Below are positions 9,805 to 57,941 of a stretch of DNA of 64,000 bases, in pieces. Location of the stretch: positions 7,378,001 to 7,442,000 of the forward strand of contig NZ_CP045643.1 of assembly GCF_009498275.1 (NCBI RefSeq). Reading direction: 5' to 3'. The position numbers and the translations under genes were made by a program. The notes beneath the pieces are model-generated. The model worked only from the letters and a program-made list of their open reading frames with translations. It ran no database searches and was not told where the DNA came from. This stretch comes from Streptomyces fagopyri (lineage in GTDB: Bacteria; Actinomycetota; Actinomycetes; Streptomycetales; Streptomycetaceae). The first letter of the stretch is position 1, and each line of letters opens with the position of its first letter.

Positions 9805-9828
9805 CTGGTCGTGCCCCCTTCCCAAGCA

Positions 9829-9860
9829 ATGGTTCTCGGCAATACCTTATGGCTCTCGGC
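9829..9860. promoter_or_regulatory. Pair of 12-bp direct repeats, candidate GntR operator
   Basis: ATGGTTCTCGGC (9829-9840) and ATGGCTCTCGGC (9849-9860) are exactly 20 bp apart, two helical turns, in the 77-bp space between the divergent regulator and ligase starts. They are good candidates for the binding sites of the adjacent GntR protein. Confidence 0.5.
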
Positions 9861-9881
9861 TGACCCAAGGAGGCTTTTCCG

Positions 9882-11252: not shown

Positions 11253-12679
11253 GGTCCCTCTTGTCGCACGAGCCCCAACCCCACGTCGTCCATGACCTGC
11301 CCCACGTCGTCCATGAGCTCCGCGTGCTCGACCCGGCCACCGAGGAGGTCGTCGCCACCGTCCCGGCCGCCACCGCGGCCGACGTGGACGCCGCCGTCCT
11401 GCGGGCGTCCCGGGCGCAGCTCCGCTGGGCCGCGCTGGCGCCCGGCGACCGGGCCCGGCTGCTGCGCCGGTTCGCCGTCGTCGTCGACGAACACCGTGAG
11501 GAGCTCGCCCGGCTGGAGGTCCGCGAGGCCGGGCACACCATCGGCAACGCCCGCTGGGAGGCGGGAAACGTCCGCGATCTGCTCGACTACGCGGCCGGCG
11601 GAGTGGAGCGGCTGACCGGCCGTCAGATCCCGGTCGCGGGCGGCCTCGACATCACCCTCCTCGAACCCCTCGGTGTCGTGGGCGTCATCGCGCCCTGGAA
11701 CTTCCCGATGCCGATCGCGGCCTGGGGCGCCGCCCCCGCGCTCGCGGCCGGCAACGCGGTCCTCCTCAAACCCGCCGAGACGACGCCCCTGACGGCACTA
11801 CGGCTGGCCGAACTCGCCCTGGAGGCAGGCCTTCCGGAGCACCTTCTGCAAGTGCTGCCGGGAGCCGGCCCCGTCGCGGGTGACGCGCTGGTCGAGCACC
11901 CCGGCGTCGCGAAGATCGTCTTCACGGGGTCCACGAGCGTGGGCAAACAGGTGTTGGCGAAGGGCGCGGCCCTTCTCAAGCGCGTCACCCTGGAACTCGG
12001 CGGCAAGAGCCCCAACATCGTCTTCGCCGACGCCGACATCGAGGCAGCCGCGGCCGCCGCCCCCATGTCCTTCCTCGACAACTCGGGCCAGGACTGCTGC
12101 GCCCGCACCCGCATCCTCGTCCAGCGCTCCGTGTACGAGCGCTTCCTCGGGCTCCTCGCCCCGGCGATCGAGTCCGTCGTCGTCGGAGACCCGTCCGACG
12201 AGGCGACGCAGATGGGCCCGCTGATCTCCCGGGCACAGCTGGAGCGCGTGCGGTCGTACGTCCCCGCCGGCCTCCCCGGCATCCGCGGCAAGGCACCCGA
12301 GGGCCGCGGCTTCTGGTTCCCGCCCACCGTCCTCACGGACGTCGAGCCGCACGCGCGGGTGGCCGTCGAGGAGGTCTTCGGCCCGGTCGCGGTCGTCCTG
12401 CCCTTCGAGGACGAGGCGGACGCGGTCCGGCTCGCCAACGCCACCGACTACGGCCTCGCAGGCTCGATCTGGACCCGTGACGTCGGGCGGGCGCTGCGCG
12501 TCTCGGGAGCCGTCCGCGCCGGCAACCTCTCCGTCAACTCCCATTCCAGCGTCCGCTACTGGACCCCCTTCGGCGGCTTCAAGCAGTCCGGGATCGGCCG
12601 CGAACTCGGCCCGGACGCGCTCACCGCCTTCACCGAGACCAAGAACGTCTTCATCAGCACGGAGGGCCCCGCACAGTGA
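11249..12679 (+). CDS. Aldehyde dehydrogenase (NAD(P)+)
   Basis: The 476-aa enzyme has the full ALDH set: GVIAPWNFPMPIAAWGAAPA, LKPAETTPLTALRLAELALEAG, VFTGSTSVGKQV, general base Glu249 in LELGGKSPNIVF, and nucleophile Cys283 in NSGQDCCARTR. It oxidises an aldehyde to the acid, plausibly the product released from a gamma-glutamylated amine. The GTG at 11249 overlaps the ligase stop. A TTG at 11261 with GAGG just upstream is an alternative start giving a four-residue-shorter protein. The SDR gene follows with a GTGA overlap, so the three genes form one operon. Confidence 0.9.
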   Translation: MRSLLSHEPQPHVVHDLPHVVHELRVLDPATEEVVATVPAATAADVDAAVLRASRAQLRWAALAPGDRARLLRRFAVVVDEHREELARLEVREAGHTIGNARWEAGNVRDLLDYAAGGVERLTGRQIPVAGGLDITLLEPLGVVGVIAPWNFPMPIAAWGAAPALAAGNAVLLKPAETTPLTALRLAELALEAGLPEHLLQVLPGAGPVAGDALVEHPGVAKIVFTGSTSVGKQVLAKGAALLKRVTLELGGKSPNIVFADADIEAAAAAAPMSFLDNSGQDCCARTRILVQRSVYERFLGLLAPAIESVVVGDPSDEATQMGPLISRAQLERVRSYVPAGLPGIRGKAPEGRGFWFPPTVLTDVEPHARVAVEEVFGPVAVVLPFEDEADAVRLANATDYGLAGSIWTRDVGRALRVSGAVRAGNLSVNSHSSVRYWTPFGGFKQSGIGRELGPDALTAFTETKNVFISTEGPAQ

Positions 12680-13485
12680 CCGAAGCCACCGCAGGTACCG
12701 AATCCCCCGCAGGGAACATCTGCCGCCGCCTCGTCGGCCGCACCGCCGTCATCACCGGCGCCGGCAGCGGCATCGGACTCGCCACCGCGCGCCGGCTCGC
12801 CTCCGAGGGCGCTCACGTCGTCTGCGGCGACGTCGACGAGGTCGGCGGCAAGGCCGCCGCCGACGAGGTGGGCGGCATCTTCGTCAAGGTCGACGTCACC
12901 GACCCCGAGCAGGTCGAGACCCTCTTCAGGACGGCGTACGACACCTACGGATCGGTCGACGTCGCCTTCAACAACGCGGGCATCTCGCCGCCCGACGACG
13001 ACTCCATCCTGGACACCGGCCTGGAGGCCTGGAGGCGCGTCCAGGAGGTCAACCTCACCTCCGTCTACCTGTGCTGCAAGGCCGCGATCCCCTACATGCG
13101 CCGCCAGGGCAGGGGCTCCATCATCAACACGGCGTCCTTCGTCGCCCGGATGGGCGCGGCGACCTCCCAGATCTCGTACACCGCCTCCAAGGGCGGCGTG
13201 CTCGCCATGTCCCGCGAGCTGGGAGTGCAGTTCGCCCGCGAAGGCATCCGGGTCAACGCCCTGTGCCCCGGACCGGTCAACACCCCGCTCCTACAAGAGC
13301 TGTTCGCCAAGGACCCGGAGCGCGCCGCGCGCCGGCTCGTCCACATCCCGGTCGGCCGGTTCGCCGAGGCCGAGGAGATCGCCGCGGCGGTCGCCTTCCT
13401 CGCCAGCGACGACTCCTCCTTCGTGAACGCCGCCGACTTCCTGGTGGACGGAGGGATCTCGGGCGCGTACGTCACGCCCCTGTAG
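12676..13485 (+). CDS. Short-chain dehydrogenase/reductase
   Basis: The 269-aa classical SDR has the NAD(P)-binding motif TGAGSGIG at about residue 32, NNAG at about 100, catalytic Ser then YTASKGG at about 170, and CPGPVNTPL. Asp in VVCGDVDE after beta-2 suggests NAD rather than NADP preference. The GTG start overlaps the aldehyde dehydrogenase stop (GTGA). The enzyme probably interconverts an alcohol and carbonyl intermediate of the same pathway; the substrate is unknown. Confidence 0.9.
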   Translation: MTEATAGTESPAGNICRRLVGRTAVITGAGSGIGLATARRLASEGAHVVCGDVDEVGGKAAADEVGGIFVKVDVTDPEQVETLFRTAYDTYGSVDVAFNNAGISPPDDDSILDTGLEAWRRVQEVNLTSVYLCCKAAIPYMRRQGRGSIINTASFVARMGAATSQISYTASKGGVLAMSRELGVQFAREGIRVNALCPGPVNTPLLQELFAKDPERAARRLVHIPVGRFAEAEEIAAAVAFLASDDSSFVNAADFLVDGGISGAYVTPL

Positions 13486-13509
13486 ACCACGCCGGTGTAT
13501 GCACGACCC

Positions 13510-14766
13510 ATGCGATTCCGATCCGTCCGCGCCGCTCTCGTATGGGCCCTGGTCGCGGCCGCCACCCCGGCGGCCGCGGCGCCCGCCCCCTCCGGTCCCC
13601 GCCCCGACTGCCCACGGCTCTCGGAGAGCTGGTACGGCGACAACCGCGCCCGACTGCAACGGCTGATCGACACGCGAGGAACCTGTTCCGGGAGCGGGAA
13701 CACCCCTGTCGCCGCGTTCGACTGGGACAACACGGTCACCAAGAACGACGTCACCGACGCCACCCTCGCCTGGATCCTGCGGCACGACGGGATCCTGCGC
13801 CCGGCGAACTGGCGGGACACCAGCGAGTGGCTCACCGGCGCGGCCGACCGCGCGCTGACCGCGGCGTGCGGCACCACCACCCCCGTGGGCGCTCCCCTCA
13901 CCACCTCGGCGGCCCCCCGCTGCGCCGACGAGATCCTGGAGATCCGCGAGACCGGGCGGACCATGGACGGCGCCGCCGCCTTCGCCGGGGACTGGAACCG
14001 CCGGCGGACCGTCCCCCAGTACGCCTGGGTGCCCCAGCTCCTCGCCGGGCACACCGTCGCCGAACTGACCTCCTACGCCCGCCGTGCCCGTACCGAGGCC
14101 CTGGCCGCGCCCGTCGGTTCGACCCGCACGGTGGGCACGCACACCCTCCCCGCGTACGTCCGGTACTACGCCCAGCAGCGTGACCTGATCCGTACGCTCC
14201 GACGGGCCGGATTCGACGTCTACATCGTCTCGGCCGGCTCCGAACCCGTCACCGAGGTCTGGTCGCGCGGCGTCGGCGTCGACGCGCGGCACACGATCGC
14301 CATCCGCTCGGTCCTCGACCGGCACGGCCGGATCACCCCCTGGAACCAGGGCTGCGGCGGCGTACCGGCGACCCGGGGCGGGGCCATCCCCTACATCGAC
14401 GGCAAGCGCTGCTGGATCAACCAGGAGATCTACGGTGTCCACGGTGCCGCGGCCTGGCGGCGGCAAGACCCGCGTCACCGTGTCGCGCTCGCGGCCGGCG
14501 ACGCCGACACCGACGTCACCTTCGTCGGGGACGCCACCGGCGCGCACCTCGTGCTCAATCGCAACAAGAGCGAACTCATGTGCCGCGCCTACGACGACGC
14601 GGACGGCCGCTGGCTGGTCAACCCCATGTTCATCGGGCCGCTGCCGCGCAGGCCGGAGCCGTACCCGTGCTCGACGAACGCCTACAACGCCATCGACGGC
14701 GGCAGGGGACCCGTCCTGAGGGACGACGGTTCGGTCGTACCCGACCAGCGGGACTCCGTGCACTGA
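13510..14766 (+). CDS. Exported HAD-superfamily phosphatase
   Basis: From the ATG at 13510 the product is 418 aa with a Sec-type signal (MRFRSVRAALVWALVAAATP, then AAAAPAP). HAD motifs follow: motif I AAFDWDNTVTKND (DxD nucleophile), motif II IVSAGSEPV, and motif IV AAGDADTDVTFVGD. Many cysteines in the mature part fit an extracytoplasmic fold. The usual annotation is haloacid dehalogenase-like hydrolase or phosphatase acting outside the membrane. A GTG at 13495 would add five residues. It starts 25 bp after the SDR gene but is probably functionally unrelated. Confidence 0.82.
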   Translation: MRFRSVRAALVWALVAAATPAAAAPAPSGPRPDCPRLSESWYGDNRARLQRLIDTRGTCSGSGNTPVAAFDWDNTVTKNDVTDATLAWILRHDGILRPANWRDTSEWLTGAADRALTAACGTTTPVGAPLTTSAAPRCADEILEIRETGRTMDGAAAFAGDWNRRRTVPQYAWVPQLLAGHTVAELTSYARRARTEALAAPVGSTRTVGTHTLPAYVRYYAQQRDLIRTLRRAGFDVYIVSAGSEPVTEVWSRGVGVDARHTIAIRSVLDRHGRITPWNQGCGGVPATRGGAIPYIDGKRCWINQEIYGVHGAAAWRRQDPRHRVALAAGDADTDVTFVGDATGAHLVLNRNKSELMCRAYDDADGRWLVNPMFIGPLPRRPEPYPCSTNAYNAIDGGRGPVLRDDGSVVPDQRDSVH

Positions 14767-44853: not shown

Positions 44854-44858
44854 CCCAC
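44854..44858. repeat. Target-site duplication, left copy (CCCAC)
   Basis: CCCAC immediately precedes the left terminal inverted repeat and is repeated exactly after the right one (55688-55692). A 5-bp duplication is the hallmark of Tn7/Tn5053-type insertion. Confidence 0.9.
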
Positions 44859-44906
44859 TGAGACGTTGCGCTGCAACTGGCGGGTTTGCAATCGACCTGG
44901 CGGGTT
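44859..44906 (+). repeat. Left end: terminal inverted repeat and transposase-binding repeats
   Basis: The 14-bp TIR (44859-44872) is followed by CTGGCGGGTT at 44877-44886 and again at 44897-44906, a 20-bp period. An inverted AACCCGCC near 44965 may be a third site. The right end carries the matching series. Confidence 0.85.
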
Positions 44907-44982
44907 GTGCGCAGGGCAGCGCCGACGGTGCGTGCGCAGGCACCGGCTCATCAGCCCAGGCCAACCCGCCGACAGTCTCCAG

Positions 44983-46263
44983 TCAGGCGTCGGCCGAGAG
45001 CTCTGGATCTGCGAGGGCATCGGCAAATCGCTCCTCAGAAGCGAGGGCGCGCAGGAGCGGGCCGACCAAGCGGCGGGTAACGGCGCCGGGAGCGTCATTG
45101 AGTTCGGCCCAGGTGGTTCCGGTCGCCTCCCTATAGGTGTCCTGGTCATAGCGGGTGGTGGAGCCGAAGCCGCCCCAGTTCTGCTGGCCGGAGTAGGGGC
45201 GACGACCACGAAGCCGGATGGCACCCACGGCGAGGGCCCAGTTCCCCACGTAGCCAGCCTCCTCGGCGGCGGCGAGCACGAGAGCGAGGCAGCGGCGAGT
45301 GAGGCTCACTGCCGAGGCATCGAAGATCATCTGGTCGCCGGAGTCGATCGCGTCCGAGAAACGGCTGGAGAACAGCCTCAGGCCGCCGTTCTCGAACACC
45401 TGCAGTTCGATCACGTCCTCCGCGCGGTAGCTGCCCTCGACGGGAGCGTATGCGCGGGCCTCCCCGAGATTGGTGGAGGCCCGGGCGGCGCCCCCGTTGC
45501 GTCGGTAGCCGTTGCCTGCGTCCAGGAGGTCCGGGGAGGCGTCGACGCCGGTCAGGATGGCGTTCAAGGCTGGAGTGTGGGCGCGCTGGATGAATTCGGC
45601 GAGTTTCACGTTCCAGCCATGTCCGCTGGTGAGCTTCAGGAGCATGTCCCGGCGGCCCGCCAGGGGATGAGCGACCAGGAAGAGGTGGGATTGCTCGCCG
45701 ACCTCGCGCAGCGGGTCCTGGTCGAATTCCCGCTGCAGCAGGGCGAGCGCGTCTTGTTCGGCCGACCGGCGCTGCTCGTGGAGGCGCGCGACCTCGGCGT
45801 CGGTAAGCACGTGCTTGGTCTTGTCATTGCGGCCGTAGTAGCGGCCGTCGACCATGTGGGGTGCCTGCGGGCTTGCCGGGACATGGACGAGGAGATAGCC
45901 CTGGGTGCGGTCCGCGTCGGTGGCGATGACCTCGGTGACGACGTTGAATGGCGGGTCGGGGATGGAGCGGGCGACGGAGTCGACCTTCTCCGCCAGGCCG
46001 TCCAGCGGCTGCGGCGTGAGGTTGAACGTGCGGTTGGGTTTATCCTCGCCGATACCGATGATCAGGGTTCCGCCGTCGATGGCGAACGAGGACAGGTCCT
46101 TGGCCAGTTCCTTGTTGTCGCCCTTGGTGACGAGCTCCTTCTTCACATCCAGACGACTCGACTCGTCGATAAGCCCGCCGTCGATGACGGACTGAAGATC
46201 GGCTTCGCTTTTGGGTGTCCATCGGGGGGTATCCGAGGAGAGGTAGATCGACGTCACGGGCAT
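44983..46263 (-). CDS. AlbA_2 (Schlafen-like) domain protein of the Ubl operon
   Basis: From ATG 46263 the protein is 426 aa (MPVTSIYLSSDTPRWTPKSE). Residues 36-130 form an AlbA_2/Schlafen-type domain (SSRLDVKKELVTKGDNKELA, LSSFAIDGGTLIIGIGEDK), a putative nucleic-acid or nucleotide-binding module. The remaining 290 residues have no motif I recognise. It is the last gene of the operon. In prokaryotic defence loci AlbA_2 proteins often act as sensors or effectors, so an effector role is inferred. An ATG at 46341 is an alternative start. Confidence 0.72.
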   Translation of the reverse strand: MPVTSIYLSSDTPRWTPKSEADLQSVIDGGLIDESSRLDVKKELVTKGDNKELAKDLSSFAIDGGTLIIGIGEDKPNRTFNLTPQPLDGLAEKVDSVARSIPDPPFNVVTEVIATDADRTQGYLLVHVPASPQAPHMVDGRYYGRNDKTKHVLTDAEVARLHEQRRSAEQDALALLQREFDQDPLREVGEQSHLFLVAHPLAGRRDMLLKLTSGHGWNVKLAEFIQRAHTPALNAILTGVDASPDLLDAGNGYRRNGGAARASTNLGEARAYAPVEGSYRAEDVIELQVFENGGLRLFSSRFSDAIDSGDQMIFDASAVSLTRRCLALVLAAAEEAGYVGNWALAVGAIRLRGRRPYSGQQNWGGFGSTTRYDQDTYREATGTTWAELNDAPGAVTRRLVGPLLRALASEERFADALADPELSADA

Positions 46264-46346
46264 CCCTACGACTCGTGCAGCAGATGCCTCCGTCCCGGAG
46301 GCGTTGACGGAGAGTATGACCATCTGCACCAACGGGCGCATTTGGA

Positions 46347-46362
46347 TTCCTGATATCAGGAA
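46347..46362. promoter_or_regulatory. Perfect 16-bp palindrome TTCCTGATATCAGGAA
   Basis: The palindrome sits between the JAMM-E1 stop (46392) and the AlbA_2 gene start. It could be a protein-binding operator for a separate promoter of the AlbA_2 gene, or a weak processing hairpin. Its AT-rich centre is unusual for this genome. Confidence 0.5.
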
Positions 46363-46391
46363 CCGCGGACCAGCCACCCGCTGGCCCGGGT

Positions 46392-47792
46392 TCACGACCG
46401 CATGTTCGTCGCGTGCCGGATCGCAAGTTCTCCGTTGGCGCCGCGCCCGAGGTTGCCAGTCGGAGTGCACCAGCGACAGCCGCTGTCCTGACGGGCATCT
46501 TGCAGATGGCGTTCGCGAATACGGGGGCGGTGAATGACTGATCCGAGGTCGTCATCGTCCTCGTGCAAGCTGGCGGATGCGAGAAGGAAGTGGGTCAGGG
46601 CCTCGCTGGCGGCGAGGGTGTTGAGGGGCATCACACTCGGCGCGGGAATTCCGGGGATGTAGCGGGCCTGTTCGCGTTCCGCGTCCGGGTGCATCTCGAT
46701 GGCGAGTTCGGTGCGGTCGATGAGCTGGTTGCACCAAAGACAGCCGACGCCCGGTGCGATGAGGCGGGTGGCGGTGTGGATCTGCCCGATCTCTCCGTCT
46801 CCGGTCACGGGGATCTTGACGCCGACCTGGGTCGCGGGGATGAGGTACTCGTGGACGGCCGCGTTGACCCAGTGTCGGGCAGCATGGCTGTCAGCAGCGA
46901 GAAAGATCCAATCGCACTGCACCAACTCGCGCAGGGCTTCGGGATGCTCCACCCGTCGCGGAACCGTGACCAGGCGGATCTGCGGATTGGCCCGCATGGC
47001 GTTCCGGGCGGCGAGTTCAGTCTTGGGCTTGTCGACGTCGCCGCGTTCGGCTGCGATCAAGCGGGGGAGGTTGGTCGCGTCGACGGTCTCACTGTCGATG
47101 AGGACGAGTTCCCCGGCGCCGAGTCGGGCGAGTTCTTCGACGAGGACGCTGCCGACGCCACCCAGGCCGACGACCGCGACGCGCAGGTGAGTGAGGGTTT
47201 CCTGCCCGCGGTCGCCGAGAAGCCGCGCCTGCCGGTCCCACAAAGGGTCGGAGGCCGTCGGCCGGGCGGGGTTCGGCCGCAGCCGGCGGAGGTTCCCGGC
47301 CGGGATGACGGTTTCGGCCAGCGGTGCGCGCGTGCCGTCGGAGAGCCATAGGTCGCCGGCGACAGCGTGCGGGGTGAGGACGAGTCCTCCGACGATCTGG
47401 TCGCTGATCTGCTGCAGTGTGGGGTAGCCGCGTTCGTGGCTGGCCAGGTCGACGCGGGAGAACTGGACGTTGTCGAGGCCGAAGTGGCAGTGGACAGCGA
47501 GGTAGGCGAGTTGTTCGTCGCGGGCGCGGACGATCGCGTCGCGTACGAATGTCGGGGACAGGGCCCGGTAGCCGGTCTCGCCAGGGACGTAGTCCTCCCC
47601 GTCCCGGGCGATGAGAAGTTCGCGGGCCAGAAGCCGCTGGCCTCGCGGGCCGTCGGCCTGGCCGGCGAGGATCACGGCACCGTGTTCGTCGCCGTCGGCG
47701 CGGAACAGATGCCGGGACAGGTCGTTCCAGAGGCGGGGCGGGAGGGTGAGGCTCCAGCCATCGGCCGGTGGGTTTACTGGTCGGCGAGCCAC
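46392..47792 (-). CDS. JAMM-protease/ThiF E1 fusion protein
   Basis: The 466-aa protein from GTG 47792 (AAAGGAT upstream) has two domains. Residues 15-160 are a JAB/JAMM metalloprotease (E36; H101-x-H103; S112-x-x-D115 in AVHCHFGLDNVQFSRVD). Residues 200-466 are a ThiF/E1 adenylating domain (VVGLGGVGSVLVEELARLG at 208, Asp233, NLPRL), with zinc-type Cys351/354 and Cys439/442. The expected roles are to adenylate the Ubl C-terminus and to process or deconjugate it. No separate catalytic thioester Cys is evident. It overlaps the E2-like gene by 19 bp. Confidence 0.85.
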   Translation of the reverse strand: MARRPVNPPADGWSLTLPPRLWNDLSRHLFRADGDEHGAVILAGQADGPRGQRLLARELLIARDGEDYVPGETGYRALSPTFVRDAIVRARDEQLAYLAVHCHFGLDNVQFSRVDLASHERGYPTLQQISDQIVGGLVLTPHAVAGDLWLSDGTRAPLAETVIPAGNLRRLRPNPARPTASDPLWDRQARLLGDRGQETLTHLRVAVVGLGGVGSVLVEELARLGAGELVLIDSETVDATNLPRLIAAERGDVDKPKTELAARNAMRANPQIRLVTVPRRVEHPEALRELVQCDWIFLAADSHAARHWVNAAVHEYLIPATQVGVKIPVTGDGEIGQIHTATRLIAPGVGCLWCNQLIDRTELAIEMHPDAEREQARYIPGIPAPSVMPLNTLAASEALTHFLLASASLHEDDDDLGSVIHRPRIRERHLQDARQDSGCRWCTPTGNLGRGANGELAIRHATNMRS

Positions 47793-48160
47793 CGGCGGAT
47801 CCTTTCGGCCTTGAGGGCGACGTTGTCCACGCCGGAGTCGCGGCGGTTGGATCGTCGGGAGATCTGCATCGCGGGGCGGTTCTGCCACGGGACCTGCTGG
47901 ATGGCCGGTCCGTGCGGCTGGCCGTCAGCGCGGGTGAGGACGCCGGTGTAGTGGGGGTAGATGTCGGCGTCCGGGTAGGCCGCGCTGATCTGGAAGCCGA
48001 GCCACGTGACCGAGGAGGTGTAGGCGGTGCCGACCGGCACCTCCTCGACGGTCACGAATACCCCGCCGGCGCCGTCCGTCACGACCTCGACCGGATGACC
48101 GGCGAAGTGGAGACGGACGGCCTCGACGGCTTCGGCGACTGCCGGAGCGAGGGTGATCAC
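47774..48160 (-). CDS. E2-like protein, prokaryotic E2 family E type
   Basis: The 128-aa protein starts at GTG 48160, overlapping the Ubl stop (GTGA). The UBC-like core VEVVTDGAGGVFVTVEEVPV, ISAAYPDADIYPHY and the end MQISRRSNRRDSGVDNVALK ... RIRRWL align by eye with Prok-E2_E members found in multiubiquitin operons. There is no cysteine anywhere in the sequence, so it cannot form a classical E2 thioester. It may act as a scaffold or use another chemistry. Directly followed by the JAMM-E1 gene. Confidence 0.75.
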   Translation of the reverse strand: MITLAPAVAEAVEAVRLHFAGHPVEVVTDGAGGVFVTVEEVPVGTAYTSSVTWLGFQISAAYPDADIYPHYTGVLTRADGQPHGPAIQQVPWQNRPAMQISRRSNRRDSGVDNVALKAERIRRWLADQ

Positions 48161-48435
48161 GAGTTGTCGTCCGGCGGGACGGCCAGGAACTCCTGGTGCG
48201 CGTGGACGTGGACGGTCTTGTTGTCGTCCACGACCTGGTAGCGGCCGTTGCCCTGGCGGACAGAGAGCTGGAAGCCCTCGTCGATCGGCAGTCCCTTCGT
48301 GATCGCGGCCCTCTTGATCTCCAGGCCCGTGGCCTCGTGGTCCGGGAGGACCACCGGGCGGCCGTTCACCGTCACGGTGACGGTGTGCGGTCGGGGCGGA
48401 GCCGCCTCCGCGGCCACCTCGTTGGAACCCGTCAT
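48157..48435 (-). CDS. Ubiquitin-like protein (multiubiquitin domain, single copy)
   Basis: The 92-aa protein begins MTGSNEVAAEAAPPRPHTVT. One ubiquitin-like domain follows (VTVTVNGRPVVLPDHEATGL, EIKRAAITKGLPIDEGFQLS, GRYQVVDDNKTVHVHAHQEF), matching the multiubiquitin family. It ends PPDDNS with no terminal glycine, unlike ubiquitin or SUMO, so it is either unprocessed or used differently. The ATG at 48435 has AGAGG upstream. First gene of the Ubl-E2-JAMM/E1-AlbA_2 operon and the presumed modifier. Confidence 0.82.
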   Translation of the reverse strand: MTGSNEVAAEAAPPRPHTVTVTVNGRPVVLPDHEATGLEIKRAAITKGLPIDEGFQLSVRQGNGRYQVVDDNKTVHVHAHQEFLAVPPDDNS

Positions 48436-48607
48436 TGACGTGCCTCTTTTCCTCGGGCGAGCCGGACCCTGACCGGGCACGACCATCGCGACTTCGTTTC
48501 GGTGCGTCGAAAGTCAAACACTCTGCGATCAAGGTAACACGCCCGCGTTCTGGATGTCGAACACCGATTGAAAGTAGACTGACCACCCGATACCGAGGAG
48601 GAGGGCG
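48436..48607. promoter_or_regulatory. Divergent promoter between Ubl operon and XRE/ImmA pair
   Basis: On the plus strand TAGACT (48575-48580) is a good -10 for the XRE gene, with GAGGAGGAGGG before its ATG. Two related sites, TCGAAAGTCAAAC (about 48508) and TTGAAAGTAGACT (48568-48580), are candidate operators. The second covers the -10, so the XRE protein could repress both directions. Confidence 0.5.
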
Positions 48608-48994
48608 ATGGCCCGGACCCGCGTGAACGTGTCCGCCTTGTATGCGGCTCTCGACGCCGCGAGGACCAAGAAGGAACTTTCATGGCGGCAGCTGGCCGCC
48701 GCGGTGGGTGTCAGTCCTTCGACCATGACGCGCATGGCCAATGGAAACCGCCCGGACGTGGACGCCTTCGCGGCTCTCGTGCGGTGGCTCGGCATGCCCG
48801 CCGAGACCTTCATGGTGGACCCAGAGGGCGACCAGCTGGAAACCCGGGCAGAGGAGCCGGAGTTGATGGCGCAGTTGGCACCGTTGCTGAGGGCTCGTGG
48901 CGATCTGGGTGCCGAAGACGTGAAGTACTTGGAAGAGGTGATCGGCGCCGCAATGCGCCGATTCGCCTCCGATCGGGAAGCCCGTTCGAGGTGA
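48608..48994 (+). CDS. XRE-family HTH regulator
   Basis: The 128-aa protein has an HTH_3 domain at residues 10-70 (LDAARTKKELSWRQLAAAVG, VSPSTMTRMANGNRPDVDAF), then a helical C-terminus. It is paired with an ImmA/IrrE protease 3 bp downstream, an arrangement in which the protease cleaves the repressor on a signal. It is divergent from the Ubl operon and is the probable switch for it. The ATG has a very strong GAGGAGGAGG ribosome-binding site. Confidence 0.88.
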   Translation: MARTRVNVSALYAALDAARTKKELSWRQLAAAVGVSPSTMTRMANGNRPDVDAFAALVRWLGMPAETFMVDPEGDQLETRAEEPELMAQLAPLLRARGDLGAEDVKYLEEVIGAAMRRFASDREARSR

Positions 48995-48997
48995 CGC

Positions 48998-49594
48998 ATG
49001 GGTCAGCGGTGGACCAAGAAAGCTCTCCAGGATCTCGCGCTTGACGTCCGCCGGGAGATAGACGCTGGGCCGAATAGCCGGCTCGATCTCACGCAGTTGG
49101 CTGGCGAGTACGGGGTCCCGGTGTATGCGATGAGCGATCTCGGTGCCAGCGGTTGCTCAACCGAGGCTCTGGACCACTTCACTCTGCGACGACCCGAGGC
49201 ATGGTCGGCCGCCCTGGTGCCAGTAGGAACCGCACGGCTCATCGTGGAGAACTGCGCTCACACGCTCCAGCGGCGCCGGTCGAATGTGGCGCACGAGATG
49301 TCGCATCTCATCCTGGAGCACGAGTTCGAAGGCATCCTCTTCGCGGACGGCGGCTGCCGTGAGCTGGGCCCCGAGATGGCAGTGAAGGAGCGCCAGGCGA
49401 GCGACCTCTCAGGGGAGCTTCTCATCCCGATGTCGGCGGCGATCGCAGCCGCGCTGGCGAAAAAGTCTGACGAAGAGGTGGCGGAGCAATTCGACGTGAG
49501 TGTGCGCTTCGCCGCTTGGCGCATGAATGCCTCAGGCGCTCGGAAGATCGCTCAGCGAACCCTTCAGAAGCGGGCGGCGGGAAGCCGTCGCTAG
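48998..49594 (+). CDS. ImmA/IrrE-family metallopeptidase
   Basis: The 198-aa protein has the zinc motif HExxH (NVAHEMSHLILEHEF, residues 97-109) of ImmA/IrrE peptidases. These cleave partner XRE repressors, as in ICEBs1 ImmA/ImmR. It starts 4 bp after the XRE stop, so the pair is an operon. Its last 63 bp overlap the end of the converging tniQ gene on the other strand, a very tight join between cargo and transposition module. Confidence 0.88.
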   Translation: MGQRWTKKALQDLALDVRREIDAGPNSRLDLTQLAGEYGVPVYAMSDLGASGCSTEALDHFTLRRPEAWSAALVPVGTARLIVENCAHTLQRRRSNVAHEMSHLILEHEFEGILFADGGCRELGPEMAVKERQASDLSGELLIPMSAAIAAALAKKSDEEVAEQFDVSVRFAAWRMNASGARKIAQRTLQKRAAGSRR

Positions 49595-51454
49595 CGAGTC
49601 GGCACCACATCCGGCTGCATCGACACTGCTGGCCAGGCTTTCGGCGTACTCGGAGAGAATGCGCGCGAGAGCGGCATAGTGCGGGGACCCGTCTGGGCGG
49701 GTCAACTGGAACCAGGTGGTGTTGCGCCGTGCGGCCCAGGCGCGCTGGACTGCCTCCGGTTGCGATTCCTCGATCGGGCGAGGGGCAAAGAGATGCTCGC
49801 CTTGAGTGATGTGGGCCCAGACGTAGACGGATGCGGCTTGACGTTTTCTGTCGTCGAGGACGGGCTGTTTGGGGCCTCGGGTGGGTGGGAGCCTGGAGTT
49901 CAGCTCTTCCCAGGTATTTGGGTCCAAGCTCCATCCGGACAGCGCTTGCCGCCGGTGCTGGTAGTCGATGGGGGCTGGCAGCGACTCGATCTGCTCGGCG
50001 AGTGTTCGCAGTGCTCGCTCGAAGGCGAGTGGATCTTGTTGGGTGCGGGCCCAGCGGTGAACGTCAGTGGCTCGGGTGTATTGCAATCGACTGGGGTTGA
50101 CCCCCAGAAAGATGGCCGCGTCCCCCAGTGAGCCGCCTGCAACCATCTGCACCAGGCGGACGGCTGCTGTGCGGCGGAGGATCTTGGGGGTGAGTCCCGT
50201 GAACGCACTGAAGCAGCTCTGAAACCAGTCGTGTTGAAGATACGCCGGAATATGTTCCGGAGAAATCCCTCCCGCAAAATATGGCGCTTTACGTCTGTCT
50301 GGCCCCGCCGAGCGGCGGAAGGTGCGCACGAGGGGTTCAGCAGCTTTTCGCAGCCTTGCGGAACATGCCTCATCTGCTTTTTCGAACACGCTCACCCAAG
50401 GGCCGGGATGGTCCGCGCGGACGCGACCTGCCTCAATCAGCGGGGAGAGCGCATCCTGAAGGTCTTCCATGGCCAGCAGGCGATCGGCTCCTTCCACGAG
50501 GCCCGCGCCGACCTGTGCATCCTCAGGCGGGGCACCGATGATGCTGAGCATGCGCGTAGATGATCCGAGCCGCTGCCGACGCATCTCGAAGTGCTGGTCG
50601 GACGCCTCGGCCAGTTCTGGCCGGATATATGAACGCGCCGTGGGCCAGGTTGTACTGATCAGTGTGGCAACGAGCCGCAGATCAGTGAAGTAGCGCCTGG
50701 CCTCGGCTGCCGACGCATCGGGATGCAGTCTGCTGAGCAAGCGCTGTTGGAGAGTCAACAACTCTGCGGGCACTCTCATTTGCTTGGGATTGCACGGTTC
50801 TTGATCCAACCTCCAGCCGCACGGAGAATCCGAACGGTTGGCCCGTTCGGAGGGACGCTGAGGGACCCGGCATTGCGCAGGATGGTATCCAACGAGGCCA
50901 AAGCGACCGATAAGCCTGCCGCGCGCGCTGTCGATGATTGCTGTGTGGCAATTGGGGCACGTGTGTTGGAGGAACATGTGATGTTCCGTGCAGAGGAAGG
51001 CGATCGGCAGGCGCCAGATTTTCCGCCAGGGACCTCCATGCTGGTTCTGGATCGGCGAACCATCGCCCGCCAAGCAACGGGGGCAGTATCGGGCGGTTGC
51101 GTGGAAGAGCCAGCTGTCTCTGAGCGGCCGGGTGGCCGCTTCGGAGCGCAACGCGTTGGCGACCGGCGGGTAGTGGTTCCTCCATGGTGCCAGGGTCAGC
51201 GATGCAGTTTCGGAAGCGGTGAGCCGGGTGGCTGCTGCGAAGGAAGCTGCCGTTTGTGGGGGCAGGGCCGTTGAAAGCGAGGCCGCAGCTGAGAGGACCC
51301 CGTGAACATTCGACTCGGCAAGGGTGGTGCGCCGTATGACGCGGCCGGAGGAAATGCCAAGCCGATGGGCGAGGCGGAGGACGTAACCGGTGATGGATTC
51401 CTCAGGCAAAGGCACGAGGCTGCGGGGAAGCGGTTCGATGTCCACTGCTCTCAC
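49532..51454 (-). CDS. tniQ: TniQ-family transposon targeting protein
   Basis: The 640-aa protein has an N-terminal TniQ domain (LPRSLVPLPEESITGYVLRL AHR region). The zinc-finger series is Cys124-x-x-Cys127 (YCPRC), Cys155/His158 and Cys166-x-x-Cys169 (CPNC). It is longer than typical TniQ and in the range of TnsD, which binds a specific target DNA and recruits the ATPase. GTG start overlaps the tniB stop (GTGA). Whether it recognises a site near argC is an open question. Confidence 0.85.
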   Translation of the reverse strand: MRAVDIEPLPRSLVPLPEESITGYVLRLAHRLGISSGRVIRRTTLAESNVHGVLSAAASLSTALPPQTAASFAAATRLTASETASLTLAPWRNHYPPVANALRSEAATRPLRDSWLFHATARYCPRCLAGDGSPIQNQHGGPWRKIWRLPIAFLCTEHHMFLQHTCPNCHTAIIDSARGRLIGRFGLVGYHPAQCRVPQRPSERANRSDSPCGWRLDQEPCNPKQMRVPAELLTLQQRLLSRLHPDASAAEARRYFTDLRLVATLISTTWPTARSYIRPELAEASDQHFEMRRQRLGSSTRMLSIIGAPPEDAQVGAGLVEGADRLLAMEDLQDALSPLIEAGRVRADHPGPWVSVFEKADEACSARLRKAAEPLVRTFRRSAGPDRRKAPYFAGGISPEHIPAYLQHDWFQSCFSAFTGLTPKILRRTAAVRLVQMVAGGSLGDAAIFLGVNPSRLQYTRATDVHRWARTQQDPLAFERALRTLAEQIESLPAPIDYQHRRQALSGWSLDPNTWEELNSRLPPTRGPKQPVLDDRKRQAASVYVWAHITQGEHLFAPRPIEESQPEAVQRAWAARRNTTWFQLTRPDGSPHYAALARILSEYAESLASSVDAAGCGADSLATASRRPLLKGSLSDLPSA

Positions 51455-52683
51455 CCAACATCCTTCGTGGCCGCAGGTCCGCGATCATCGAAGACAGTAT
51501 TGCGGCGGCGCCTACTTGTGTCGTGGCGAGGCGGAACGGGAGGCACCTCGCCAGCTCCAGGGTCCCGGCCGGGCGCCCCAGCCAGGTCGATGGTGATGTT
51601 CTCCAGGAGCTGTTCCGTCAGCCGCTCCTTCCCGGTCTCGATGGCGTCACGACACCCGTCTTCCATCAACCGTTCGAGCAGACCGACGACACCGTCGGTC
51701 CGCTGATAGAGGTATTCGGGCATGGTGCCTGCAGTGAGCATCCCCTCGGGGGCGTTCATGAGGCGCAGTTCGTTCTCGACGCCGGCCAGGTGATCGATCC
51801 AGGCGGCTATCTGGTCGTCGGTGTCGTAGCGGAAGCGGTCGAGTTCGACGAGGTCGAAGCGGCGTTCCGTCTGGGTCGCTTCCAGGCCATGGATGTTGGC
51901 ATGCCTCGACGGAGGCATGACTACCTGCCCGGTCCGGGGGTCGTGCCGGCCTTCCCGCAAGAGGCCAGAGGCTGGGATGTCGACTCCGACCAGCACCAGG
52001 GTGACGTTCATGCTCATGAACGCGCGGATGAGATCGAGGGTGTCCTGGTCGTCGGCGCGGTGCATGCGGAGTCTGGTGATGTCGTCCAGCAGCAGGGCCT
52101 TCGTGCCATGGTCATGCAAAGAGGCGGCGACTTGGCGGACCAGGTCGGGCAGGTCCATGTTCGTCGTTTCAGCGCCGTAGAAGCTCAAGATCGCCTTGCA
52201 GGTGCTCTTCGGTTTCGCGGTCACGGGGGTCTGGACATAGGCAACCGGAGCGTGCAGATCACGAGTTCCTAGCAGTGCGTCGGGGTTGAGGTTGTGGTGC
52301 AGGGCAAGCCACCGGTCCTCGAAGGCGGCGGCGACCTCGCATGTGGATTCGGTCTTCCCCTGATAACCCCCGCCAGTGATCATCACTCCGGCGCGAGTGG
52401 TGGGCTTGTGCTTGAGCGCGTTGCTCTCGATGCGGCCGTTCAGCAGCTTCGCAACGGCTCGGCTCATGGGCGTGTCCAGCAACGGGAGATTGGCGTGGGT
52501 GGCTGCCCGGTGCAGGTCGTGCAGCGTCCGCCGCCGAGCACTCAATGCCCGCCAGGCGGCCCGGTCGAGCCGGGGTGCCGGCTTGAAGATGTCCCGGGAG
52601 GTTCGCCAGGACTGCCAGCCCGCCGCGGTGTCCCGCTGCGGCGGTGGGCCGGGGAGGATGAAGGGAATCGCGCTGTCCGTCAC
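51451..52683 (-). CDS. tniB: TniB/TnsC-like AAA+ ATPase
   Basis: The 410-aa protein carries Walker A GGGYQGKT (residues 104-111) and Walker B ALLLDD (196-201), and is recognisable as a TniB/TnsC transposition regulator. Such ATPases form filaments on target DNA and link TniQ to the transposase. The tail is basic and disordered (DTSRRRRNTVFDDRG). The start overlaps the transposase stop by 4 bp; its own stop overlaps the tniQ start. Confidence 0.87.
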   Translation of the reverse strand: MTDSAIPFILPGPPPQRDTAAGWQSWRTSRDIFKPAPRLDRAAWRALSARRRTLHDLHRAATHANLPLLDTPMSRAVAKLLNGRIESNALKHKPTTRAGVMITGGGYQGKTESTCEVAAAFEDRWLALHHNLNPDALLGTRDLHAPVAYVQTPVTAKPKSTCKAILSFYGAETTNMDLPDLVRQVAASLHDHGTKALLLDDITRLRMHRADDQDTLDLIRAFMSMNVTLVLVGVDIPASGLLREGRHDPRTGQVVMPPSRHANIHGLEATQTERRFDLVELDRFRYDTDDQIAAWIDHLAGVENELRLMNAPEGMLTAGTMPEYLYQRTDGVVGLLERLMEDGCRDAIETGKERLTEQLLENITIDLAGAPGRDPGAGEVPPVPPRHDTSRRRRNTVFDDRGPAATKDVG

Positions 52684-54716
52684 TCGGGATCGCCTGCCCC
52701 GGCCGGGTCGTCCTCGTCGGGGAGTACGAACACGCCCTGGTGCCGTAGTGCTTCGCCCATCCGGGGCGGCAAGGTGGGGTGAGCAGAGACGGCGGTCTCG
52801 CGCCGCCGTCGGCGGTCCGCATCGATGGCCTGCTGATTGTGCTTGACCAGCTCCAACGGCCGCATGACTGCCGGGCGTTGCGGGCTCACGGGCGTCGAGT
52901 TCGCGGGGCGGTCCGTGGCGGCGGCCCGGGCGCGAGCCAGCTCACGTGCCCGTTCAGCCTTCTGTGTCTTGGTCATCTGGCTCGGCCATGCCTTCACCGG
53001 GGTATGGCCGGCGACCAAGTCCAGGAGCACGGGCAGCAGTTCGCTGTCGTCGCGCGGTTTCAGGCCGGAGCGGGCCGCCTCGCGCAGGACCTCGCGGACG
53101 CGTGCGTCGGAGAAGGCGAGGACGTCGTCCCCGGGCGGCAGACCGCGCCAGCGCAGCGGATGCCATTCACCCGTGTCAGGGTGCTCGAAGAAGACTTCCC
53201 GGCAGTCCCGCGGATCACGGCGGACAATCCATTCGCCGCGGTGGACACCGCTGCGGCGCGAGCGGCGTCCCCGATAAGGGTCAAGGACGGGATCGTCATA
53301 CCAAAGTCCGCCGGCCTTCACTCCGCGATTCCCGTGGATCATCACGGAGTGGGTGGGCAGCAGTTGGTAGTAGAGGCTGGGCTCGGGGACCTGGAGGTCG
53401 ATTCCCTCGCGGGCGCCCGCCATAGCGAACAGCGTGTTCGGGCTGTGCCGACCTCCCGGGTCCCAGGCTGGTGCGTGTTCCGCCAACTGGCGGTTCTGCC
53501 AGATCCTGACGGTCCACGTAGCCAGAAGGTGTTCCATTTCCTCCAGGGTCCAGACCGCGTCACCTTCGGGATCGGCGCCGCGGTCGGCGACATCGATGCC
53601 GCTGTAGCCGAGCAGCAGCTCCAGCAGCAAAGACCGGATTCCTCCGAAGGCACGTTCGCAAGCAGCCTTGTCGGTCGGGCGCATGACGCGGGCAGGCAGC
53701 ACAACCACCCCCAACGTGCGGGCGACCTGTACCAAATGATGATTCTTGTAGACGCTGCCGTGATCGGTGGTCACGGTCTCCGGGGCGAAGAACGGCCGTC
53801 CCGCCACCGGGTGCCCGGCGAACTCCGCCACCAGCGCCACCGGGACCCCCGGGTAGGGCCACCGCATCTCCTCGCCCCAGCCGGGCCTCATCGGCAGCGG
53901 AAGCATCACGTCCCGCAGCAGCATCGCCACTTCCACCGAGGAGTCCGATCCGGGCGTCAGCCGGAAGGCGACCAGGGAGTGCGTGAACGCGTCGAGGGCC
54001 AGGGTCAGGTCAACAGAGATCGGCTCCCCGAAGACGTCGTCGAGGACCTTGACCGGCAGCGGCGTGGTGTCCAGCACCACCACCTGTCCCGGCCGTGTGA
54101 TCACCACTCGCGAAGTGCCGGCGTCCACCGCCGCGGCAGAGCGGATGTAACGCTGCCGGGCGCCCTGCGAGCCGAACCACTCCTTCCAGACCCTCCACAA
54201 CGTCACGTAGTGCGGGATGTTCTTCTCCGCCTCCGGGCCGAACTTCTCCCGGACATACTGGTGGATCATGCGTTCCTTCGTCCGCATGCTCACCTTCGAG
54301 CGGTGCAGCGTCTCCGCGTGAACGGCGTGGATCGCCTTCTCGATCTCCGGCTTGACCGATGGGTGCCCGCGCAGCGGCGGCGTCCACCGCCCGTCCGCCA
54401 GCCCCATCACGCCGTGCTCATCGAGCTGGGCGGCCATCCGCTCCAGGGTGCGGTGGCTGATCTGTCCCAGCCCGAGCAGCTTGGCGTCCTGCGTGTGAAG
54501 GCCCTGCAACTCGGCCACCTTCGCCAGCCGGCGCTGGGTCAACGTCGTCCGCTCAGGGTCGTACTCAGGGCGCGGTTCACCCGGCTCGGCCCAGAATGGG
54601 CTGCCGCTGCGGAAGCCTGTCTCGACTTCCAGCACGTGCGCCATCCGGGCTCGTGCCCGGTCCCGGTGGACCGGCTCCAGGTCCTCGATCTGCGGCAGTT
54701 GACGACCGTCACCCAT
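52680..54716 (-). CDS. tniA: TniA/TnsB-like DDE transposase (Mu C-terminal type)
   Basis: From ATG 54716 the product is 678 aa. It has N-terminal HTH regions (LGLGQISHRTLERMAAQLDE, RTKERMIHQYVREKFGPEAE) and an RNase-H-like integrase core with DDE residues Asp216 (VVVLDTTPLPV), Asp318 (TVTTDHGSVYKNHH) and Glu354 (TDKAACERAFGGIRS). A Mu-transposase C-terminal beta-barrel and a basic tail follow. It cuts 3' ends and joins them to target DNA. The start overlaps the tnsA-like gene by 8 bp. Confidence 0.92.
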   Translation of the reverse strand: MGDGRQLPQIEDLEPVHRDRARARMAHVLEVETGFRSGSPFWAEPGEPRPEYDPERTTLTQRRLAKVAELQGLHTQDAKLLGLGQISHRTLERMAAQLDEHGVMGLADGRWTPPLRGHPSVKPEIEKAIHAVHAETLHRSKVSMRTKERMIHQYVREKFGPEAEKNIPHYVTLWRVWKEWFGSQGARQRYIRSAAAVDAGTSRVVITRPGQVVVLDTTPLPVKVLDDVFGEPISVDLTLALDAFTHSLVAFRLTPGSDSSVEVAMLLRDVMLPLPMRPGWGEEMRWPYPGVPVALVAEFAGHPVAGRPFFAPETVTTDHGSVYKNHHLVQVARTLGVVVLPARVMRPTDKAACERAFGGIRSLLLELLLGYSGIDVADRGADPEGDAVWTLEEMEHLLATWTVRIWQNRQLAEHAPAWDPGGRHSPNTLFAMAGAREGIDLQVPEPSLYYQLLPTHSVMIHGNRGVKAGGLWYDDPVLDPYRGRRSRRSGVHRGEWIVRRDPRDCREVFFEHPDTGEWHPLRWRGLPPGDDVLAFSDARVREVLREAARSGLKPRDDSELLPVLLDLVAGHTPVKAWPSQMTKTQKAERARELARARAAATDRPANSTPVSPQRPAVMRPLELVKHNQQAIDADRRRRRETAVSAHPTLPPRMGEALRHQGVFVLPDEDDPAGAGDPE

Positions 54717-55557
54717 CTCCCGCTCCTGCCCGGTAGATCCACGTCGCGTCCTTGAAGGGCTGGGCCAGGTCCATGGCCAGGCGGCGGTGCCAGAGCAGAT
54801 GGATGGCGTGCGCGCGGGCGACCGCCGGCAGCGACGTGCCCTCCACCAGGTCGACGAAGCGCCGCGGCCGTTCCTGGACACCGGCCAGTAGTTGCTGCTC
54901 AAGACCGAGCCGGTCGCTCATGCTCCGGCGACGGGACGACAGCGTGTCGATGCCCGTCATGACATGCCGCCGCCACCCGGTCACCACCGCATAGCGCCAG
55001 CCCACCGCGACCGCGGCCTGGGCTGCGGACGCGAAGCGAAGCTCGTCCTCCGGCTTGATCCTCCCCGCAGGCCGGACGTCCAACAGCCAGCCGCCGCCCG
55101 CCCCCAGCACCAGGAAGTCCGGCGTGTGCTCGCCTGGCCCCTTCTCGGCGGTGAACCGCAGCCGGAACGGCTGGGACAGCACCTCGCTCACGCCTCCGGC
55201 AAAGTCCAACGCCAGCAGCAGCCGCCGCTCGGCGAGACTCTCGAACCCGTGCTGGCGCCCCGTGGACACCAGGCACTCAAGCCCGGGACGGTGTTCCTGA
55301 CCAGTGCGCCAGGAGAAACGCCGCAGCGGAACGGACGTCAGCATCGGCGCCCCGGCCAGGTCCTTCACCGGGCAGACAACGTCAGCCTTGCCGGTCTTCC
55401 ATGTGGTGGTCCACCGGCGAGACCATCCCGGACCGCTGTCCAACTGGCGTACCGCCCGTTCCGGCAGGGCGTAGGGAGCACACAGACCGTCAAGCGTGCA
55501 CGCATGAGACCAGACCACGGAGGACTCGACGCCTCCCGTACGGAATACGGCGTCCAT
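54709..55557 (-). CDS. TnsA-like heteromeric transposase endonuclease subunit
   Basis: The 282-aa protein has the TnsA nuclease arrangement: Glu106 (GFESLAERRLLLALDF), Asp147 (EHTPDFLVL) and Asp160-Val-Arg162 (GGWLLDVRPAGRIKPEDE). The usual catalytic Lys of the PD-(D/E)xK motif is Arg. TnsA cuts 5' strands so that the element moves by cut-and-paste. The C-terminal region (HAIHLLWHRRLAMDLAQPF) fits a TnsC/TnsB-contacting winged helix. First gene of the transposition operon, reading inward from the right end. Confidence 0.82.
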   Translation of the reverse strand: MDAVFRTGGVESSVVWSHACTLDGLCAPYALPERAVRQLDSGPGWSRRWTTTWKTGKADVVCPVKDLAGAPMLTSVPLRRFSWRTGQEHRPGLECLVSTGRQHGFESLAERRLLLALDFAGGVSEVLSQPFRLRFTAEKGPGEHTPDFLVLGAGGGWLLDVRPAGRIKPEDELRFASAAQAAVAVGWRYAVVTGWRRHVMTGIDTLSSRRRSMSDRLGLEQQLLAGVQERPRRFVDLVEGTSLPAVARAHAIHLLWHRRLAMDLAQPFKDATWIYRAGAGDG

Positions 55558-55635
55558 GCCACCAGAACACCGCCACCGCCAGTGCCTCGTGAACGGTTCT
55601 CACAAAACCCCACCAATCACCCATCAAGGGCGCTA

Positions 55636-55687
55636 CCCTGCCCGCCGACCACCCCGCATAACCCGCCGACTGAAGCGCAACGTCTCA
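55636..55687 (-). repeat. Right end: terminal inverted repeat and transposase-binding repeats
   Basis: AGCGCAACGTCTCA (55674-55687) is the exact inverse of the left TIR. Inward are AACCCGCCGAC (55660-55670) and GCCCGCCGACC (about 55640-55650), the same GGCGGG(T/C) boxes seen at the left end. The outer part is thus conserved for about 28 bp with few mismatches. Confidence 0.85.
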
Positions 55688-55692
55688 CCCAC
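55688..55692. repeat. Target-site duplication, right copy (CCCAC)
   Basis: This is the exact copy of 44854-44858, on the other side of the element, and marks the insertion point 76 bp upstream of argC. Confidence 0.9.
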
Positions 55693-55712: not shown

Positions 55713-55744
55713 GCATTGCATAAACGTGCATCGATACGTATAGT
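55713..55744 (+). promoter_or_regulatory. argC promoter with ARG-box-like operator
   Basis: TTGCAT (55716-55721), 17 bp, then TATAGT (55739-55744) is an excellent -35/-10 pair. GCATTGCATAAACGTGCAT (55713-55731) overlaps the -35 and resembles actinobacterial ARG boxes. ArgR encoded at the end of the operon should bind here with arginine and repress. The transposon stopped just short of it, so regulation is probably intact. Confidence 0.75.
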
Positions 55745-55756
55745 CATGCCATCTAG

Positions 55757-57941
<2,185 letters not shown>

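Follow-up and report, generated by a model that had tools for sequence, protein, structure and literature searches.

Conjugation by the bacterial ubiquitination-like (Bub) machinery proceeds by serine oxyesters. As given in passages of a 2026 EMBO J paper, 219 of 544 Bub operons occur with CapW or with CapH and CapP. Among Tn7-like transposons, attachment sites at comM, yhiN, parE and tRNA genes are described in parts of PMC11406308; according to the main text of Benler 2021 no member of its Actinobacteria-dominated clade had been characterised, and ubiquitin, Streptomyces and argC all go unmentioned in that main text. The present analysis concerns a 64,000-nucleotide stretch of Streptomyces fagopyri DNA (contig NZ_CP045643.1, positions 7,378,001 to 7,442,000; hereafter the window, in whose coordinates all features are given), which contains a Tn7-like element of 10,829 bp and ten frames, delimited to the base at 44859-55687, beside the gene argC. 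Comparison with related genomes leads, with good confidence, to a reading of this element as a functional-looking Tn7-like transposon with a Bub-type cargo, belonging to a set of elements that appear to have inserted repeatedly at the argC site.

Delimitation of the element and its position at argC

An earlier sequence-only reading of the window had proposed an intact transposon with 14-bp inverted termini and a CCCAC duplication, and that delimitation holds to the base. The left terminal inverted repeat (TIR), TGAGACGTTGCGCT, lies at 44859..44872 on the forward strand and the right one, on the TnsA and argC side, at 55674..55687 on the reverse strand; both are exact 14-mers, and they are bordered by identical copies of the target-site duplication CCCAC at 44854..44858 and 55688..55692. 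The termini are not common chromosomal repeats, which by the terms of the earlier reading would have refuted it had they been such: TGAGACGTTGCGCT occurs exactly at just two places in the 8,880,330-bp genome, both of them element ends, and with one mismatch at two further places. In a search of the window only, with up to two mismatches allowed, two TIR matches were reached in 16 of 100 shuffles and so are not rare by chance; the case for the element is therefore made by the exactness and orientation of the TIRs, the duplication and the tns genes taken together. Two 20-nt subterminal direct repeats with TGGCGGGTT (44866..44905, forward strand, 75% identical) are, by analogy, likely TnsB sites. 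The element has a GC content of 66.9%, compared with 72.9% and 71.2% in the window flanks. All genes have open frames throughout, as had been claimed, and the intact frames and exact ends are compatible with a recent arrival; from the ends and the gene set, a functional-looking cut-and-paste Tn7-like transposon is predicted.

Absent from the earlier reading was the fixed position of the element by argC. This host gene (55769..56797, forward strand) is undisturbed, with the element end 81 bp upstream of its ATG and 28 bp outside the argC operator/promoter TTGCATAAA. The operator/promoter, TTGCATAAAnnTGC...TATAGTCATGCC (55716..55750, forward strand), is conserved upstream of argC in relatives and is a candidate TniQ recognition site. 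Such a fixed position would turn an element that landed into an element that homes. A search with right-flank DNA showed that another Streptomyces genome (G036) holds a related element, its TnsB 54% and its TniQ 44% identical to those of the window, with 79 bp between its tnsA-side end and argC. When GTDB contigs were searched with a 13-row TnsB alignment as query, 80 loci were kept of 114, and argC borders the element in six of them, at 81 bp in L138 (Streptomyces sp. ISL-96), L142 (S. zagrosensis), L213 (S. monomycini) and L145 (Streptomyces sp. MUM 2J, with the tniQ side toward argC), at 82 bp in L212 (a metagenome bin, with a degenerate element end) and at 83 bp in L188 (S. dioscori). When the tnsA-side flanks of 87 loci were each compared with all the others, the largest group, of seven loci, was the one at argC; the next has four, including a duplicate place.

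The site was also approached through the DNA itself. A pattern of operator followed by element end, TTTATGCAA-N26..32-TGWGAC, has a single match in each of 31 Streptomyces genomes out of 392, where about one genome in 392 is expected by chance for the end hexamer (4^-6 arithmetic); the reversed pattern gave none. Of 30 pattern loci that were read, 28 have argC, a count that is partly built in, as the pattern includes the operator; what informs is that the end hexamer stands at this spacing. In 25 of these loci the gap was measurable, at 79-86 bp and mostly 80-84 bp, and a second subterminal repeat, [ACG]GN[CT]GGC, follows in 18 of the 30, compared with 5.7% of 600 control windows. Among 28 argC loci picked independently of the pattern, two (G007, G022) have the end hexamer at 79-86 bp, whereas the rest of the upstream kilobase has it at a rate of 0.008 per 8-nt window; in another genome, G025, the end lies 82 bp from argC and is degenerate. 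Most argC loci examined are thus free of an end, and the situation that would have told against the earlier reading, in which relatives all have the same genes there without ends, did not occur. The comparison with empty sites in related Streptomyces that the earlier reading had called for could be made by alignment only in G012, where left1 and argC are intact neighbours, because left1, tried as a common left neighbour of argC, rarely adjoins it in relatives (1 of 29 relatives' 3-kb loci, L134, plus L213).

Together, these comparisons show that in Streptomyces related elements have, as judged from the genomes surveyed, inserted repeatedly at a single position, some 81 bp upstream of argC. Very probably argC is an attachment site of this actinobacterial Tn7-like family and is read by a TnsD-like TniQ. 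No paper naming argC as a Tn7-like site was found in the literature searched, and a term search limited to the main texts of PMC8649781, PMC10293859 and PMC11406308 did not find argC; one literature match for Tn7-like and argC was rejected, since the letters there open the name of a program in a cited reference.

Transposition genes and related elements

The tnsA, tnsB, tnsC and tniQ genes are consecutive frames, the end of one overlapping the start of the next, and here both frames and domain matches agree with the single overlapping operon that had been described. TnsA, the endonuclease (54709..55557, reverse strand), matches NF033179 (NCBIfam TnsA_like_Actin) at 133 bits (cut-off 110). The transposase TnsB (52680..54716, reverse strand) matches PADLOC TnsB (E 1.5e-19) and the solved TnsB structures 7svw/8rdu (E 6e-11), and Pfam rve at 23.1 bits, below its cut-off of 32.6; residues D216, D318 and E354, which we take to be the DDE triad, are invariant in 13 of 13 aligned sequences. 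TnsC, an AAA+ ATPase (51451..52683, reverse strand), matches AAA_22 and TniB. The 640-residue TniQ/TnsD-type target selector (49532..51454, reverse strand) matches PF06527 at 85.7 bits (cut-off 27), and its predicted model (pLDDT 81.5, pTM 0.67) has as best fold match, a weak one, TnsD in the TnsD-TnsC-DNA complex 8v32 (E 3.6e-3, prob 0.99), with TniQ chains next. No tnsE was found among the frames of the element.

A TnsB search gave matches, mostly distant ones, in 60 of 150 relatives, and further matches in 370 plasmid records; a scan of GTDB genomes with the single TnsB protein as query, in place of the 13-row alignment, gave no relative. The 95 Tn7-like loci collected represent at most 92 distinct places, as 3 of the 80 GTDB loci duplicate others. 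A scan of relatives for the window's own TIR found none, because TIRs differ between elements. A scan for duplications and inverted repeats showed L039, L040, L042, L045, L050 and L057 to be complete to the base, with 5-bp duplications at sites elsewhere; their TIRs start with TGTGAC, whereas that of the window starts with TGAGAC. Genes for arsenic and phosphate are annotated near L040 and L043, and thus cargo varies in the family. In the plasmid copies L039 and L254 the stretch examined has no TTGCATAAA. Seven loci (L169, L180, L186, L192, L195, L199, L202) have two long TniQ genes in tandem behind TnsABC, which suggests two putative target selectors per element.

The cargo and its carriers

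The view that the cargo comprises a ubiquitin-like (Ubl) operon with an XRE/ImmA pair agrees with the domain matches; what had not been seen is that the E1 frame is a JAB-E1 fusion. This BubCD-like JAB-ThiF protein (46392..47792, reverse strand, GTG start; ThiF 132 bits), with a fused JAMM-type deconjugase domain, has as its nearest solved chain Citrobacter BubCD (9ea4, E 4.1e-28), and its JAMM residues HxH...SxxD are invariant in 12 of 12 aligned relatives. The putative BubB-like E2 (47774..48160, reverse strand; Prok-E2_E 22 bits, below the cut-off of 25) has no cysteine, the Ser in Q-x-S-R-R being invariant in 12 of 12 aligned relatives, and a profile from 12 relatives matches Citrobacter BubB weakly (E 0.0044). 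The BubA-like Ubl protein (48157..48435, reverse strand) matches Multi_ubiq (PF14452) at 39.5 bits (cut-off 24.5), and its profile matches the solved multi-ubiquitin proteins 9d59 and 9cd2 and Ubl-BilA 8u38, mostly via extra domains of longer relatives. It ends in DDNS, as do 10 of 12 aligned relatives (HEDS in L099; L102 was aligned one codon short), and a more distant Ubl, L098, ends in FGGGV. The replacement of Gly-Gly by DDNS is nearly invariant in this Bub subgroup, which includes Actinobacteria, Rhizobia, Nostoc and Deinococcus. By its genes, the cargo operon resembles the Bub machinery, in which BubA would be the Ubl conjugated, BubB an E2 acting via serine rather than cysteine, and BubCD the JAB-E1.

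Divergent from the Ubl operon is an XRE-type, CapH-like repressor (48608..48994, forward strand; HTH_31/HTH_3), for which PADLOC gives a weak capH match (E 0.0029) and a better one to RmrA (7.2e-8). It is followed by a CapP-like ImmA/IrrE metallopeptidase with HExxH (48998..49594, forward strand; PF06114, Peptidase_M78, 44.3 bits; PADLOC capP E 6.6e-8), for which no PDB sequence match was found at E 0.01. An HTH repressor and an ImmA protease thus adjoin the Ubl operon promoter as they do for CapH and CapP. The XRE/ImmA switch on a Ubl operon had been thought new, and this part of the earlier account falls, as such control of Bub operons is already published in the 2026 EMBO J paper. From published relatives, the XRE protein would repress the Ubl operon until a stress signal, for instance ssDNA, sets off the ImmA protease and the repressor is removed, and the conjugation system would thereby be turned on under phage attack or DNA damage. 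The remaining cargo gene encodes a Schlafen/AlbA_2 protein (SLFN_AlbA_2; 44983..46341, reverse strand, start codon uncertain; PF04326 36.8 bits, cut-off 25.3).

Rather than antiphage defence, the operon may be a module for stress response or for addiction, by which the element is stabilised, an explanation with a substantial chance of being right, if somewhat below even. Passages of the 2026 EMBO J paper state that phage protection by Bub was not demonstrated and that Bub may be a stress response, and an addiction role was speculated on in parts of Iyer 2006; the CapH/CapP-type control and the defence-rich neighbourhoods of such operons elsewhere favour defence indirectly.

Bub genes are present in 1 of the 95 related Tn7-like loci, that of the window, in the stretches examined, many of which end at contig ends. 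With the E1 as query, matches came from 17 of 295 Streptomyces genomes at E 1e-20 and from 5 of 394 genomes of the class at 1e-45, and in phages Bub gave one weak record only. That Bub operons generally ride on Tn7-like elements was rejected as a rule, as 27 Bub stretches gave no more than a TniQ orphan in L081, a TnsB-like frame with a weak match in L093 and a TnsA-like frame at a distance in L092. In L081 (G154, 9247-14662), the Bub operon, together with XRE and ImmA, adjoins the orphan TniQ gene, near an aminotransferase gene, possibly as the remnant of another Tn7-like Bub carrier. XRE and ImmA homologues adjoin the Bub operon in L081 and L103 and are annotated likewise in L094 and L097. 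Truncated E1 genes in other Streptomyces (L078, L080, L082), whose DNA is 80-84% identical to the window E1, appear to be remnants of a once commoner close relative. A literature search combining Tn7-like, ubiquitin-like and Streptomyces found nothing. The spread of Bub between phyla has so far been inferred from scattered operons, and the window element provides a delimited mobile vehicle for it.

The sequence read at argC

The insertion point itself is unconserved among relatives, whereas TTGCATAAAnnTGC...TATAGTCATGCC is conserved. In 19 loci hand-picked from the 25 measured, the distance from the element end has an SD of 1.3 to TTGCATA, a distance that the pattern bounds to 26-32, and of 2.1 to the ATG. 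For these two reasons the operator/promoter is preferred as the site read by TniQ, with modest odds on present comparisons. This operator is presumably an ARG box, with a role for the arginine repressor. That TniQ reads the 5' coding sequence of argC instead is the less favoured and somewhat unlikely choice: the coding DNA of argC is also well conserved, and the classical TnsD reads a coding end, that of glmS (parts of PMC11406308), while the smaller spread of distances to TTGCATA, within its bounds, points away from the ATG side.

A mechanism may be proposed on this basis. The long TnsD-like TniQ would bind a conserved sequence in the 5' region of argC, of which TTGCATAAA...TATAGT, 28 bp away, is the likeliest, and, once bound, would recruit TnsC; TnsA and TnsB would then insert the element at a fixed distance, so that argC and its promoter stay intact. 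Taken further, this becomes a Tn7-like family that homes via TniQ/TnsD on the arginine-regulated argC operator/promoter, may be in competition with the arginine repressor or under its gating, and exports cargo such as a DNA-damage-inducible Ubl conjugation system; the full proposal is tentative, its prospects lying just short of even.

Probable independence of the insertions

Eighteen argC-site stretches were followed inward from the end. An identical 5-bp duplication with a partner end was found in three: L257 (G266), 13.8 kb, with tns genes in the opposite orientation and tniQ in pieces; L270, 10.4 kb, with tnsA in pieces; and L261. The last (G048:C58), on the argC side, is a mini-element of 772 bp whose two ends agree in their first 16 bases and which has an exact CCAGG duplication; it is a derivative like a miniature inverted-repeat transposable element, probably moved in trans. 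L262, at 826 bp, has a duplication matching in 4 of 5 positions, and L213, an element of 6.5 kb, is flanked on either side by GCCTG and has virtually no cargo. Five exact 5-bp duplications are thus present at argC (window, L213, L257, L261, L270), all mutually different. The same point was thus entered, in either orientation, by elements that are autonomous, decayed or of mini size. L257 and L145 have the opposite orientation, with the tniQ side toward argC, unlike the usual one-way Tn7 insertion. In L053 (G036), an IS-like transposase gene lies inside the element end, between tnsA and argC, and a partner-end candidate 35.9 kb off has no matching duplication.

In a comparison of INDEPENDENCE and TniQ among eight argC-site elements, argC is 78-97%, TnsB 53-94% and TniQ 38-67% identical. 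In a TniQ tree of 68 rows, from which the truncated L212 was excluded, all seven argC rows fall in one 20-row group (99/98), and the argC labels require three changes, with 0 of 500 shuffles as low.

Several findings weigh against repeated homing by a dedicated TniQ. Two of the 30 pattern loci (L251, L253) lie away from argC, and the second subterminal repeat is missing from several of the 30. Behind the 18 followed ends, tns hits were found in 6 and a complete tnsABC-tniQ set in 2 (L269, L272), and a look for the outer partner end and its matching duplication found none in L138, L142, L188 and G036. Of the 13 other rows in the TniQ group that holds the argC rows, six (L039, L140, L144, L178, L215, L217) have at least 2 kb of flank and show no argC, the remaining seven having too little flank; the TniQ of L217 is very close to that of G036, yet L217 is without argC. 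These rows led to rejection of the idea that a TniQ of the argC clade always implies argC. No fold match of TniQ has an E below 0.001, and the want of demonstrated phage protection by Bub, cited above, bears on the defence role.

The argC upstream region could simply be a permissive intergenic hot spot where many mobile elements survive, as would suit the different upstream neighbours of argC between genomes and the second insertion between tnsA and the element end in G036; ends placed at 79-86 bp, mostly 80-84, rather than scattered across the intergenic region, and five exact 5-bp duplications at that point make this improbable. A single ancient insertion, vertically inherited and later diverged or lost, is more improbable still, for although the argC-site TniQ rows all fall in one supported group and L213 and G036, close in host and element (argC 97%, TnsB 94%), may partly share descent, the duplications differ at otherwise identical flanks, both orientations occur (L145, L257), the elements are far more diverged than argC, and most sampled argC loci have no end. 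Repeated insertion at argC offers a testable attachment site for Streptomyces Tn7-like transposons, beside an operator and a gene that the whole genus conserves, and genome engineering might use it as a landing site. The repeated insertion also bears on how TniQ proteins choose DNA, here perhaps an operator rather than a coding end or tRNA gene.

Comparison with known systems

The closest parallel is Tn7 with TnsD at the glmS attTn7 site, which shares TnsABC with a long TniQ-family selector, a 5-bp duplication and a fixed distance from a conserved, intact gene, the tnsA-side end usually lying toward the gene. It differs in using the 3' end of glmS, whereas the element here lies upstream of argC beside the operator/promoter; the frames of the window element also hold no tnsE, and both orientations occur among its relatives. 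Elements at comM, yhiN, parE and tRNA sites are alike in site-specific homing by TniQ/TnsD-family proteins, as outlined in parts of PMC11406308. The Actinobacteria-dominated clade of Benler 2021, as described in its main text and compared without a joint tree, is similar in host group, in TnsABC-TniQ, in possible defence cargo and in NCBIfam TnsA_like_Actin.

For the cargo, Bub operons (Citrobacter BubB/BubCD) share the Ubl, the JAB-E1 fusion and, if the E2 assignment is right, the non-cysteine E2, often by CapH and CapP or CapW, and operon type 6e, in the relevant part of Iyer 2006, has the same architecture as the window operon. The latter differs from Citrobacter Bub in its low identity, the DDNS end of its Ubl, the extra SLFN_AlbA_2 gene and the Tn7-like setting. 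CapH and CapP are likewise a small HTH protein and an ImmA-type metalloprotease on the promoter side of an immune operon, whereas the window pair has a weak capH match and a merely presumed activation by ssDNA. The Bil (ISG15-like) systems also combine Ubl, E1, E2 and JAB activities, but fit less well: because the window has JAB fused to E1, a putative E2 without cysteine and BubCD as its nearest solved E1, Bub is the preferred assignment.

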